Translations under genes and position numbers: made by a program
Notes under the pieces: model-generated
The model's database searches: none
Seen by the model: the letters and a program-made list of their open reading frames with translations, nothing else
Told to the model about the DNA's origin: nothing
Shown: positions 15,648-34,645 of the stretch, piece by piece
How the letters are laid out: each line of letters opens with the position of its first letter
Position numbering within the stretch: position 1 is the stretch's first letter
Assembly (NCBI GenBank): GCA_029263395.1
Contig: JAJCXO010000283.1
Span: forward strand, 1 to 34,645
Origin: Acidobacteriota bacterium
GTDB taxonomy: Bacteria > Acidobacteriota > Thermoanaerobaculia > Multivoradales > J023
Length of the DNA stretch: 34,645 nt
Direction: 5' to 3'

Positions 15648-15719
15648 CCTAGTGTCTCTGGCAAGCCTAGTGTCTCCGGCAAGCCTAGTGTCTCCGGCAG
15701 ACCTAGTGTCTCTGGCAGA
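15648..15719. repeat. 18-bp tandem repeat, four units
   Basis: Four contiguous 18-bp units with consensus CCTAGTGTCTCYGGCARR start at 15648, 15666, 15684 and 15702, with a degraded start of a fifth at 15720. Units differ at two or three positions only. There are no spacers, so this is a minisatellite and not a CRISPR array. It ends 75 bp before the carbamoyltransferase ATG. Confidence 0.9.
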
Positions 15720-15794
15720 CCTACTGCCCGCCGTCGCCCTTCGCTGATGGGCGGGCTAGCTGGCTCTTCATGAGTACCGTAAGCTTGGCGGCCC

Positions 15795-30642: not shown

Positions 30643-30752
30643 ACACCCCGCATTCAAACCCATCAGCTGCCCGCAACGTCTAAGCACCTGAGCCCTTGCA
30701 GCTCGCAGCCGTTGCAGCCTCCAACCTCCGCACCTTCGGGGAGAGCAGCTGG

Positions 30753-33215
30753 ATGAACAATCCGTTCCAAGACCTGCGCCAGGACCTTCGCCACGCTCTG
30801 CGCTCGCTCCGCAAGAGTCGTGGCTTCGCCGCGGTCGCCGTTTTGACGCTGGCGATCACCCTCGGCGCCAACGCCACCCTCTTCGCCCTGATCGATGCCG
30901 TACTGCTGGAGCCTCTGCCGTTTGCGACGCCGGATCGGTTGGTGGCGCTGTGGAGTGCGCAGCCCGCGGACAACACATTCAAGGATCGGGTGCGTGCGAT
31001 CGACTACCTCCGCTGGCGCGAGCGCAGCGATGCCTTCGACCGGATGGCATTGTTTTCCTACGACTCCCAGACACTCACTGGCAGCGGCGATCCACAACAA
31101 ACTTTCGGCTCGCGGGTGACCGAAGACTTCTTCCCGATGCTCGGTGTGACACCGCTCTACGGCCGTGTATTCGAGCCCACAGATTACGCCGCAGACGCAG
31201 CGCCCGCGGTGGTGGTGAGCCACGCCCTGTGGTCGCGTCAGCTCGGCGCCGATCCCGACGTGGTCGGCTCGACGATCACCCTCGACGGCCAGGGTTACAC
31301 CGTCATCGGCGTGCTGCGTCGCCAGATCATGCCGCTGGTAGCCTGGCACTTGGGTCGACTCGAACTGGGTTCGAGCCAGGCCCACTTCTGGCTCACCAGC
31401 GATGCCGAAGCCCTGCAACCGACCAGTGGTGTCCACGGCGTCCTCGGCCGACTCGCCCACGGCGTCAGCCTCGAGCTCGCCACCGACCGCATGGATGCCA
31501 TCGCCCGCGGTCTCGAGGCCGACGATCCAGACACCCATGAAGGCTACCGCGTGACCCTGGTACCGGTCCTCAGCGAAGCCGTCGGCGACGTCTCGCAGTC
31601 ACTGTGGCTCCTATTGGGTGCCGTCGGTCTGACCTTGCTGATCGCCTGCGCCAATATCGCCAACCTCTTCCTAGTCCGCGCCGACCAGCAGCGCAAGGAA
31701 TTTGCCATCCGGTCGGCCCTTGGTGCCAGTCGACTGCGCATTTGGCGACAAGTCATCCTCGACGGCGCCCTGTTAGCACTCGCCGGGGCGATCTTGGGCA
31801 CACTCTTCAGCATCTGGGCCTTACACCTGCTGCCCCGGCTGAGTCCGGCCGATATCCCGCGCCTCGACGAAATGACCCTCGATCTGCGAGTGCTCGGCGC
31901 CACCTTCGGATTGTGCCTGTTGTGCGGCCTGCTGTGTACCTTGGTGCCGGCCTTTCAGGCCGGCCGGCTGGATCTCGACACCACGTTACGAGCCGGCGGC
32001 AGGCAAGGTTCCGGGCCGGGTAACCCACGGCTGCGACAGTTGCTAGTCGTGACAGAGATGGCGTTGGCCGTGATCTTGGTGGTGGGCTCAGGGCTACTCC
32101 TGCGCAGCTTCTCGCGGCTGTCCGCGATGGATCCAGGGTTCGAGCGTGGGCATGTCCTGACCTTCAAGTTGATGCCACCCCGCAGCGATTATTCCGAAAT
32201 GCATGGACTGACTGGCTTCTATGACCGTGCGTTGGAAACAATGCGTACGATGCCAGGTGTAGTCTCGGTTGCGGCGGCCTATGATCACCCCCTCGACTCC
32301 AACTGGACGCAGAGCTTTCGGGATGTCAACGGACCTGAGCCCGAGGCATGGCAGACCGGCGCCTTCCGCACGGTGACGCCGGAGTATTTCGACACCATGG
32401 GGGTCGAGGTGACCGCGGGCCGTGGGTTCACCCCCGGCGACGACGCCGAGGCGGCCGGCGCTGTAATCGTCAACCAGACCTTCGTGCGTCGCCACTTCCC
32501 GGACCGTGAACCCCTCGGCCAGCAGCTCGAAATGGTCACCACCCACTGGCAGTGGGGCGACGACGCTATCCCGTTCGCGTTCCGTGTCGTCGGCGTGGTC
32601 GAAGACGTGCGCTTCAAGGGCTTGGCCTCGCCGTCGGAAGCCGCTTTCTATCTGCCGTATCAACAGACACCCCACTTCACCATGACCGCCCTGGTTCGGA
32701 CCGAGCGCGAGCCACAAGCGCTGATGCCAGAGATCCGCTCCCGACTGCGAGCGATCGACCCGCGAGTGCCGATCGCCAACATCAAAACCTTGGACGCTCT
32801 GCTCTCCTCCGAGGTTGCAAAACCGCGCTTCAGCGCCCTCGCCCTCACCGGCTTTGCTGCCGGCGCTTTGCTCTTGGCGGTCCTTGGACTGTGGGGCGTC
32901 CTTAGCTATTCGATCCGACAAAAAGTCCACGAGATCGGACTTCGCATGGCGTTGGGGGCAGCCGGCCACCACCTATTTCGCTGGGCGGTCTGGCACGGCC
33001 TACGTCCAGCCCTGCTCGGCCTCACCGTCGGCTTGCTCGGCGCCGCGGCACTTTCCCGTCTATTCCACAGCTTGCTGTACGAGATCAGCCCAACCGACCC
33101 CGTCACCTTCCTGGCGGTACCCATCACCTTGCTCGCCGTGGCCTTCCTCGCCTGTCTCGTGCCAGCAGCCCGGGCAGCCCGCACCGACCCAATGACCGTC
33201 CTCCGTGAGCAGTGA
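30753..33215 (+). CDS. ADOP-type ABC permease (MacB/FtsX-like, orphan)
   Basis: An 820-aa permease. I chose the ATG at 30753, where the family N-terminus begins (NPFQDLRQDLRHALRSLRKS) and a GGGGAGAG site lies 8 bases upstream; the frame is open 19 codons earlier without support. Layout: helix 1 (FAAVAVLTLAITLGANATLF), a MacB-like periplasmic core, a block of three helices (about 285-420), a second FtsX half with LLVVTEMALAVILVVGSGLLLRS split around 440-460, a second periplasmic core, and three C-terminal helices with the LRMALGA motif. The duplicated MacB_PCD-FtsX plan and length match acidobacterial duplicated orphan permeases. No ATPase gene is adjacent, as is usual for this family. The transported substrate is unknown; MacB relatives drive export from the periplasm by mechanotransmission. 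Confidence 0.93.
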   Translation: MNNPFQDLRQDLRHALRSLRKSRGFAAVAVLTLAITLGANATLFALIDAVLLEPLPFATPDRLVALWSAQPADNTFKDRVRAIDYLRWRERSDAFDRMALFSYDSQTLTGSGDPQQTFGSRVTEDFFPMLGVTPLYGRVFEPTDYAADAAPAVVVSHALWSRQLGADPDVVGSTITLDGQGYTVIGVLRRQIMPLVAWHLGRLELGSSQAHFWLTSDAEALQPTSGVHGVLGRLAHGVSLELATDRMDAIARGLEADDPDTHEGYRVTLVPVLSEAVGDVSQSLWLLLGAVGLTLLIACANIANLFLVRADQQRKEFAIRSALGASRLRIWRQVILDGALLALAGAILGTLFSIWALHLLPRLSPADIPRLDEMTLDLRVLGATFGLCLLCGLLCTLVPAFQAGRLDLDTTLRAGGRQGSGPGNPRLRQLLVVTEMALAVILVVGSGLLLRSFSRLSAMDPGFERGHVLTFKLMPPRSDYSEMHGLTGFYDRALETMRTMPGVVSVAAAYDHPLDSNWTQSFRDVNGPEPEAWQTGAFRTVTPEYFDTMGVEVTAGRGFTPGDDAEAAGAVIVNQTFVRRHFPDREPLGQQLEMVTTHWQWGDDAIPFAFRVVGVVEDVRFKGLASPSEAAFYLPYQQTPHFTMTALVRTEREPQALMPEIRSRLRAIDPRVPIANIKTLDALLSSEVAKPRFSALALTGFAAGALLLAVLGLWGVLSYSIRQKVHEIGLRMALGAAGHHLFRWAVWHGLRPALLGLTVGLLGAAALSRLFHSLLYEISPTDPVTFLAVPITLLAVAFLACLVPAARAARTDPMTVLREQ

Positions 33216-33289
33216 CACCCGAGGCGATCCCGAGCGCTACCTGCAAGACCACTATAGACAGGACTCCTGCGTAACGCCCTAAATAAAAA

Positions 33290-33325
33290 GGAGCGACCCT
33301 GAAGAACAAGCCAAAGGCTCGTTCT
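33290..33325. repeat. 36-bp direct repeat, left copy
   Basis: Matches 34383-34418 in 35 of 36 bases (32 contiguous identical bases at 33294-33325). It contains an imperfect hairpin, GAACAAGCC-AAA-GGCTCGTTC, with one A-C mismatch. It stands 84 bp before the toxin stop codon. With the right copy it brackets the whole toxin-antitoxin module. Confidence 0.9.
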
Positions 33326-33330
33326 GCCTC

Positions 33331-33362
33331 GGGCAGTGGTACCGGGCAGTGGTGCCGGGCAG
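33331..33362. repeat. 13-bp tandem repeat, about 2.5 units
   Basis: GGGCAGTGGTACC (33331-33343) is followed by GGGCAGTGGTGCC (33344-33356) and GGGCAG (33357-33362). It lies just after the left 36-bp repeat. No open frame of interest covers it. Confidence 0.75.
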
Positions 33363-33409
33363 ACCTCTACGTTACCGGGCTAACGCTGCGTGTGGAAGGT
33401 GGCATGATG

Positions 33410-33916
33410 TTAACCGTTGTCCGTTTCTCCAGCTCTTCGTAGCAGCTCTTCCACTACCGCTCGCGAAATGCGATAACCCTGATTTAAGAGGTCAGAAAGC
33501 AGAGGCTCGATTGTCGCTACGGCGCCTCTTTGTTTTGCCAACAATAGAAGACCTCCCGTGCCTAGTACCCGGATCCTTATCCGCTTCGCGACCTGCCGAC
33601 CTAGTCGGTCGTCCATGAGAGCGCCTGTTCGCCGTACAAGAGAGAGCTCGATGACGGCTCGTTCGCCAGCTCCCAGAGATGGTGGGAAAACAATGTCCGC
33701 GGGCCCTGGCGGCTCCGCGACTTGTAATTGTTGCTCTTCGATTGCGGCGTGGATCAATCGCGCACCTGGGAACTCAGAGTCTCGGCAGCACTCAGCAGCG
33801 ACTGCGGTAGGAATCAGAACCGTATTGAAGATTGACTGAATGAGGTCGAGAGAACCAATCCTTGCCAGTCCGATCAGTGGTCCTGAGTCGGCGACAATCG
33901 AACGATTCTCAGCCAA
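33410..33916 (-). CDS. DUF3368 PIN-like toxin of a toxin-antitoxin pair
   Basis: A 168-aa protein. SIVADSGPLIGLARIG gives the first PIN-type Asp (residue 10), GAGERAVIELSL the acidic helix, and ALMDDRLGRQVAKRI the second acidic cluster; LGTGGLLLLAKQRG is a DUF3368 landmark. PIN toxins are metal-dependent RNases, so the likely activity is RNA cleavage when the antitoxin is lost. The only possible start is TTG (33914-33916), since an in-frame stop lies three codons before it; it overlaps the antitoxin stop by 8 nt, and GAAGAG sits about 10 bases upstream. The weak start plus overlap would keep toxin below antitoxin. It is located between two 36-bp repeats. Confidence 0.88.
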   Translation of the reverse strand: MAENRSIVADSGPLIGLARIGSLDLIQSIFNTVLIPTAVAAECCRDSEFPGARLIHAAIEEQQLQVAEPPGPADIVFPPSLGAGERAVIELSLVRRTGALMDDRLGRQVAKRIRIRVLGTGGLLLLAKQRGAVATIEPLLSDLLNQGYRISRAVVEELLRRAGETDNG

Positions 33917-34232
33917 AGCTCGCTAACTCTTCGTCGAGCTCTTCGGGCGGGTAACTGACAGCATCAACTCCAGCGGCTGCCAACGTCTCGAGAAATTTTT
34001 CTACTGGCGAGTTTGCGAATCGGGCGGCCTTGCTCAAGCTCAGAACTCCATCGGCATAAAGCTTGACCGCCAACGCTTCATAGACTCCGGCTTCGAGGAG
34101 ATGCTGGTTCATTGGTACCGCCACAAAGACCGGCCGACCGTGCTTGGTCACCACGGCCAGGTCTCCGGATTCGGCGCCTCGAACAAGCTCCCCAGTACGT
34201 TGACGTAGATCACGGATGTTGAAGCTTTGCAT
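33909..34232 (-). CDS. Antitoxin with fused Phd/YefM and UPF0175 domains
   Basis: A 107-aa protein from the ATG at 34230-34232, with GGGGG about 8 bases upstream; a TTG five codons earlier is less likely. Residues 1-45 (QSFNIRDLRQRTGELVRGAE, then VVTKHGRPVFVAVP) are a Phd/YefM DNA-binding antitoxin domain. Residues 50-107 (YEALAVKLYADGVLSLSKAA, FLETLAAAGVDAVSY, acidic end) match UPF0175, the usual partner of DUF3368 toxins. The first part probably binds the operon promoter while the C-terminal part neutralises the toxin. It is the first gene of the two-gene operon. Confidence 0.88.
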   Translation of the reverse strand: MQSFNIRDLRQRTGELVRGAESGDLAVVTKHGRPVFVAVPMNQHLLEAGVYEALAVKLYADGVLSLSKAARFANSPVEKFLETLAAAGVDAVSYPPEELDEELASFG

Positions 34233-34382
34233 GACTTGAGCCCCCAAATGTGCCTACATATGATAGCACAATTCTTATGCCTTCCACTGTTCGACGAACT
34301 GACCCATTGATACTGCCCGCACTCGTGACCAGGGGCACCTATACCGGGGCCCGCACCGGCTTTGCCCCCGCCATTAGATGGG

Positions 34383-34418
34383 GGAACGACCCTGAAGAAC
34401 AAGCCAAAGGCTCGTTCT
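34383..34418. repeat. 36-bp direct repeat, right copy
   Basis: Same orientation as 33290-33325, one mismatch, 1093 bp apart. In this copy the internal hairpin is extended by an outer stem (see 34388-34426), which the left copy lacks. It lies 150 bp before the antitoxin ATG. Confidence 0.9.
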
Positions 34419-34426
34419 CCAGGGTC
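34388..34426. terminator. Long two-part hairpin overlapping the right repeat
   Basis: Outer stem GACCCTG/CAGGGTC (34388-34394 with 34420-34426) encloses the imperfect inner stem GAACAAGCC-AAA-GGCTCGTTC. There is no clear T-run on either strand. It lies 45 bp after the stop of the minus-strand gene at 34471, so it may end that transcript, or be an extragenic repeat element. Confidence 0.4.
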
Positions 34427-34470
34427 TCCGTTACCACTCTAGGCTGTCTTCAAACGCTCCGGCAGCCTGC

Positions 34471-34645
34471 CTAGTTGGAGCAGATCGACACGTCGTCGAT
34501 GCCACACTCGACCAGGTCGCCGGTTGCCGAGCCGTCGGAGCACTGGACCCGCAGCTGGACGTTGGAGCCGGACGGGATCGACGCCGTGGCGGTGGCCCAG
34601 GCGGCATTCTGAGTTGTGTCGCCGTTCGAGGCCAGGGTGTTCCAG
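34471..34645 (-). CDS. C-terminal end of a secreted protein, N-terminus outside window
   Basis: The last 58 codons of a minus-strand gene entering from the right edge, ending in TAG at 34471-34473. The visible part is small-residue rich and beta-like: WNTLASNGD, ATASIPSG, VQLRVQCSDG, ending LVECGIDDVSICSN. The GIDDVSI ending and two-Cys pattern are typical of the C-terminal jelly-roll domains of secreted peptidases and adhesins in this type of genome. The main domain cannot be seen. Confidence 0.75.
   Translation of the reverse strand, partial: WNTLASNGDTTQNAAWATATASIPSGSNVQLRVQCSDGSATGDLVECGIDDVSICSN

Follow-up and report, generated by a model that had tools for sequence, protein, structure and literature searches.

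Restriction-modification (R-M) systems have been reported to insert with "long and variable target duplication", of the order of 100 bp (PMC3874152, PMC3031569). A review on toxin-antitoxin (TA) systems cites a paper of 2000 for the mobility of R-M systems (PMC2654758). The open question addressed here is by which route small TA modules arrive at their places in chromosomes when no mobile element can be recognised. No paper on such a footprint for TA modules was recognised in our literature search, which covered mostly titles and listings and is weak evidence of absence.

The locus described here lies at the end of a contig from an Acidobacteriota bacterium. The whole stretch of 34,645 nucleotides that was analysed is called the window. 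From the sequence, we estimate with a probability of roughly 0.7 that a type II TA module of ~1.06 kb was inserted into the terminator of a neighbouring gene, here gene X, and that 36 bp of the target was duplicated in a repair-type event.

The repeat pair and the enclosed module

The repeat search in the window recovered the two 36-nt direct repeats of the first-pass annotation at the same coordinates and in the same orientation (Table 1). They are identical at 35 of 36 positions, with a start-to-start distance of 1093 bp, and are the sole exact direct repeat of at least 25 nt within the window. When up to 3 mismatches are allowed, their 31-nt core is matched twice in the window and never in 100 dinucleotide shuffles. 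The likeness between the copies breaks off sharply at either end. An assembly artefact is an unlikely source of the repeat because it is only 36 bp long.

Table 1. Features of the repeat-bracketed locus in the window.
Feature	Position	Strand	Basis
macB-like permease gene (MacB_PCD, FtsX), left neighbour, intact	30696..33215	+	Pfam, ORF
T-tract, TTTTTATTTA on the minus strand, would complete the gene X terminator	33280..33289	-	read from sequence, flank joining
Left 36-bp copy: inner stem, without the X-side outer arm	33290..33325		repeat search, folding
Three 13-bp tandem units (third diverged), just inside the insert	33330..33368		read from sequence
Toxin, DUF3368, 168 aa, TTG start assumed	33410..33916	-	ORF, Pfam
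Antitoxin, Phd-type N-terminus + UPF0175, 107 aa from ATG	33909..34232	-	ORF, Pfam, NCBIfam
TTGTGCTATCATATGTAGGCACA, 23-bp motif, probable operator/promoter	34249..34271	-	identical in L073
Right 36-bp copy	34383..34418		repeat search, folding
Full hairpin 3' of gene X, lacking a T-tract	34385..34429	-	folding
Gene X, 3' end, runs off the contig end	34471..34645	-	frame ending in GIDDVSICSN and stop; related coding stretches in other genomes

The search for the repeat beside other genes, which had been proposed as a check, gave no further copy. In the genome of the window (10.68 Mb, 291 contigs) the 36-bp sequence is present twice, both times at this locus, and with up to 3 mismatches it is absent from all of the 294 other genomes searched. 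A palindrome pattern has zero matches among viral contigs. On these three counts, the idea of a dispersed element of the REP or MITE kind was rejected. Elsewhere in the window, positions 15648-15737 hold a tandem array of an 18-bp unit resembling CCTAGTGTCTCYGGCARR.

The insert is 1057 bp long, with a GC content of 57% against 64% in the flanks. ORFs and Pfam matches of the interval agree with the annotation that the repeats enclose exactly one Phd-UPF0175/DUF3368 operon. The toxin matches PF11848 (DUF3368) with 46.5 bits (cut-off 27.3); we take it to be PIN-like, and a search of solved structures at E 0.1 gave no relative. The antitoxin matches UPF0175 with 50.4 bits (cut-off 27.9) and NCBIfam phd_fam above the cut-off, while its N-terminus reaches 29.0 bits against Phd_YefM, slightly below the cut-off of 29.8. 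The antitoxin gene is the first in the operon, and the two frames overlap. With both families in one operon, the module is, on sequence evidence, a type II TA module of the UPF0175/DUF3368 kind with a predicted toxin action. Nothing other than the TA pair, and no recombinase or integrase, was recognised among the ORFs and Pfam matches of the insert. For 13 intervals, that of the window among them, a search up to 150 bp from each end gave no inverted ends above shuffles, and there is no tRNA gene within the window.

The motif TTGTGCTATCATATGTAGGCACA is situated 16 nt before the antitoxin ATG, and the Desulfobacterales module L073, with a 50% identical antitoxin, carries it unchanged. A degenerate form with 18 fixed positions was built from the sequence of the window and those matching it best; allowing up to 3 mismatches, this form occurs at 17 of 31 loci, or at 15 of 29 if the same-place pairs (L052/L061 and L053/L085) are counted once; in all, there are 21 such matches over the 315,158 positions of the same loci. 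The motif is probably the autoregulatory operator and promoter of the module.

None of the 117 other neighbourhood genomes (118 searched, including that of the window) matches the toxin at E 1e-25, and the best toxin relative among 396 genomes of the phylum is 51% identical. Scans of genome and viral contigs for the toxin and of viral contigs for the antitoxin confirmed no relative, and phage records contain no DNA match. On plasmids, the relatives are all below 60% identity (20 records for the toxin, 2 for the antitoxin). With an antitoxin alignment as the query, 27 loci were found in named records. Most of these records carry the label Gammaproteobacteria or one of its orders, the rest being some Acidobacteria, one Desulfobacterales and one Spirochaetaceae; a recognisable toxin adjoins the antitoxin at 20 of the 27 loci. 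The module family is present across several phyla, and the Phd-type N-terminus is common to the antitoxins of the window module and of relatives such as L052 and L081.

The hairpin between macB and gene X

The macB-like gene and gene X are convergent, and the repeats with the insert stand between them. The product of gene X is probably a secreted protein. The contig ends in this gene. Several stretches of the same genome are related to its C-terminal coding part (C263 and C286, 74-79% DNA identity), and this may be the reason that the assembly stopped there.

Folding of the minus-strand RNA gives -35.4 kcal/mol (z -7.3) for the right copy and -16.9 kcal/mol (z -1.5) for the left copy, and the additional outer stem, which the annotation described for the right copy, is real. 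The hairpin of the right copy is located ~40 nt past the stop codon of gene X and consists of an 18-bp stem and 3 outer pairs. An intrinsic terminator needs a T-tract directly after its hairpin. On the minus strand, the sequence 3' of the left hairpin is GCTCCTTTTTATTTA, while the right hairpin is followed by GTTCCCCCATC instead of a T-tract; neither had been mentioned in the annotation. The outer arm is kept only at the right copy and the T-tract only at the left copy. If the insert and one copy are removed in silico, the joined flanks read as the 18-bp stem with 3 outer pairs and then TTTTTATTTA, a combination that neither present copy has.

We read these joined flanks as the reconstructed empty state. 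Gene X would have had a complete intrinsic terminator, placed in the short stretch that separates it from convergent macB, and the insert would have opened this terminator. The 36 bp of this terminator would then have been duplicated, one copy per side, with both neighbouring coding sequences left intact. The repeat is considered to be the duplicated target because the terminator halves, the outer arm and the T-tract, are divided between the two sides. The T-tract begins 5 nt past the 18-bp stem in the joined flanks, which counts against a terminator, and the automated terminator scan called neither copy. In favour of a terminator, 15-mers with at least 9 T, as in the joined tail, make up 187 of 38,837 noncoding 15-mers sampled from contigs of the same genome. 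The annotation had regarded the repeats as mediating the event or bounding a small mobile cassette. The hairpin is better read as the terminator of the target gene than as a cassette end, and the repeat as a product of the insertion rather than its cause.

It can also be supposed that nothing was inserted, and that the duplication concerned a terminator hairpin alone, with the TA module and gene X each using one copy. Both copies are indeed at the places expected for terminators, and the left one could serve the TA operon. That the repeat is not dispersed, that the outer arm and the T-tract are on opposite sides and that the module family spans several phyla make this supposition very improbable.

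An empty site was sought in relatives. When the DNA of 33200-34645 was compared with 59 genomes, the other matches fell only inside the X end of the query. With the macB protein as the query (30 genomes, E 1e-150, the best 32 candidates or fewer from each), the others were only 38-40% identical. At the window locus, these searches found no empty site.

Direct repeats around other DUF3368 modules

The first scan, of 57 loci including that of the window, found direct repeats around several modules; on the contigs of the window's own genome, 11 of 1179 control points were bracketed in the same scan, the window's own bracket included. A later sample covered up to 19.5 kb around 60 of 74 DUF3368 places in other genomes, the 14 left out including several near contig ends. 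By a loose test, 11 of the 60 loci were bracketed; among 1667 control points there were 65 with a bracket, and these came from 12 loci. By a tight test, whose limits (spacing 700-1300 bp, identity at least 85%) were chosen after the data of the loose test, 5 of the 60 loci had a bracket, as did 14 of 1243 control points taken in the same loci, these 14 being spread over 7 of them (Fisher p 0.001). With one control point drawn per locus, the mean was 0.64, and 5 or more occurred in 1 of 2000 draws. Without L210, discussed below, 4 of 60 are left (p 0.008; 3 of 2000 draws reached at least 4). The tight bracket is missing at 55 of the 60 loci. L204 (68/82, low-complexity) was removed from the tight count by the 85% filter. 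By eye, the control brackets of L166 and L177 resemble tRNA repeats, L155 is repeat-rich, and the bracket of L082 is a paralogous TA duplication.

The neighbouring genes of the following cases were named by eye from translations, and Pfam was used for the MazF-like gene of L167, the toxin of L211 and L188. In L156 (genome G128), a DUF3368 module stands between 63-bp copies of the 3' end of a ccmF-like gene. The search of this genus included 3 genomes, G128 itself among them. In the sister genome G154 the flanks meet on one copy, with a gap-free alignment of 271 bp to the joined flanks, and G166 is also without the module, its left flank being partly diverged. By parsimony, the module would have entered G128 and duplicated its target. 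Together with the two-copy status of the repeat, the split terminator and the other bracketed modules, this single-copy site of L156 supports well the insertion half of the earlier interpretation as a footprint of insertion or excision.

In L167 (8532-10361), a DUF3368 module and a MazF-like (PemK_toxin) module follow one another; three copies of an E1-beta-like gene start, 80-98 bp long, stand between and around them. The bracket of L211 is 34 bp (33/34) of a gene 3' end, and its toxin scores 21.4 bits, under the DUF3368 cut-off of 27.3. L165 has a bracket of 42 bp (38/42), and L138 one of ~125 bp that reaches the contig end. In L073, 82 bp of the 3' end of a HigA-like gene is repeated, in a TA-rich stretch with more repeats. 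In L081, the ~153-bp repeat corresponds to the gap between two convergent genes and both of their 3' ends, with an antitoxin and no toxin inside. L188, from the controls, has 47 bp (41/47) around a PIN-domain gene. By eye, non-TA inserts in L163 (66/66), L195 and L170 have a like footprint. In L163 (8356-9346), the perfect 66-bp repeats are spaced at 925 bp. The 238-aa gene between them does not resemble a TA gene and adjoins a DUF3368 gene.

L210 (8795-9958) is no longer counted among the target duplications: ~90-bp inverted repeats (74%), of which further copies are present elsewhere in that genome, overlap its direct repeats of 40 bp. In L210 and L212, from two species of the same genus, one and the same module is flanked by the same pair of genes but has opposite orientations, the reversed one being in G253; in G507 and G504 the flanks of L210 are close together. 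Because of the inverted repeats and the opposite orientation in G253, L210 is considered to be another kind of element.

The duplications differ in sequence, in length and in place, whether gene starts, gene ends or intergenic gaps, and their lengths vary by insertion (34, 36, 42, 63, 80-98, 82, ~125 and ~153 bp). Since the length varies and there are neither a recombinase gene nor inverted ends, a fixed-stagger transposase is unlikely. The variation in length, together with the absence of a recombinase gene, favours a repair-type insertion, in which a break with long staggered ends would have been joined to foreign DNA and the ends filled in.

Variable-length direct repeats without a recombinase could also be given by one-sided homologous recombination, where a donor module beside a similar gene X terminator pairs on one side and is joined illegitimately on the other. 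The two different TA modules at one E1-beta start in L167 could be explained in this way. The process requires, however, a donor whose module is already beside the same gene, and none was found for the window. The copies of L156 are 62/63 alike and match the sister genome at 61/63 and 60/63, values too close to decide. We consider one-sided recombination unlikely for the window.

The genome of the window contains five DUF3368 places, on C283 (the window), C67, C176, C69 and C266. The place on C67 (L104 13066-16686; C67 153066-156686) consists of tRNA-Gln and then an island between identical 135-bp repeats that start with the tRNA 3' end, the right repeat being at the contig end. By eye, this island contains an integrase-like fragment, a transposase-like gene and a UPF0175/DUF3368 pair. 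On C26, 33209-34940 (L121/L122), two diverged copies (80-84%) of the same tRNA-Gln-type repeat, ~1.6 kb from each other, enclose small genes; next to them is an integrase-like fragment. On C176 (L154 3027-4210; ~36026-37209), a DUF3368 toxin and a small upstream gene are inside a short CRISPR-like array: three 34-nt units (the third degenerate) with 67-69 bp spacing, then ~1 kb with the TA pair, and a fourth unit. Another CRISPR-like array, with the repeat GGTCGATCCCCGCGGGTACGGGGAAACC and ~61-bp spacing, is found at C263 187795-189158. No such direct-repeat bracket was seen around DUF3368 on C69 and C266.

As the C67 island demonstrates that TA modules of this genome do occur in such islands, and as the 36-bp repeat is palindromic, the window module might be considered as a minimal integrative element, with the hairpin as its attachment site, the two copies as attL and attR, and a site-specific recombinase encoded elsewhere. 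This is quite unlikely, given that the 36-bp sequence has no second site in the genome, that the duplications of the other modules are quite different in sequence, length and place, and that no integrase is recognised in the insert.

If a repair-type insertion with target duplication took place in the window, the direct repeats should later permit precise deletion of the module. If the module is addictive, cells in which it is lost would be selected against.

Comparison with known systems

It can be speculated, as a tentative and rather doubtful generalisation from these sequences, that TA modules of the DUF3368 type are minimal mobile genes, ~1 kb with operator, antitoxin and toxin and without a recombinase, which repeatedly enter gene ends with long and variable target duplications; their addictiveness would retain insertions that would otherwise be lost by recombination of the direct repeats. 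If this were true, TA modules would reveal, and be enriched at, a general and normally short-lived route of gene insertion. With the footprint and, in one case, the empty site of a sister genome, the question of how TA modules come to their chromosomal places can be tested by genome comparison.

The stems of integron attC sites contain unpaired extra bases; the stem in the window is continuous by eye, without such bases. Like REP and MITE sequences, the repeat is a short intergenic hairpin sequence, and unlike them it has just two genomic copies. Direct repeats around a TA module are shared with tRNA-targeted islands, of which C67 is one in the same genome; unlike these, the window contains neither a tRNA gene nor a recognised integrase, and its repeat is a terminator hairpin. 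In the scores of both Pfam families, in gene order and in the overlap of frames, the module is like other UPF0175/DUF3368 type II TA modules, and it differs in the added Phd-type N-terminus of its antitoxin.

The R-M insertions share with these loci a potentially addictive gene pair, the lack of a linked mobile element, target repeats of variable length and, for L156, the empty site in relatives. The cargo here is a ~1-kb type II TA module and not an R-M system, the duplications range from 34 to ~153 bp, against the order of 100 bp, and the empty site of the window is reconstructed. The long and variable target duplication joins TA modules to R-M systems, in which the same footprint has been described.
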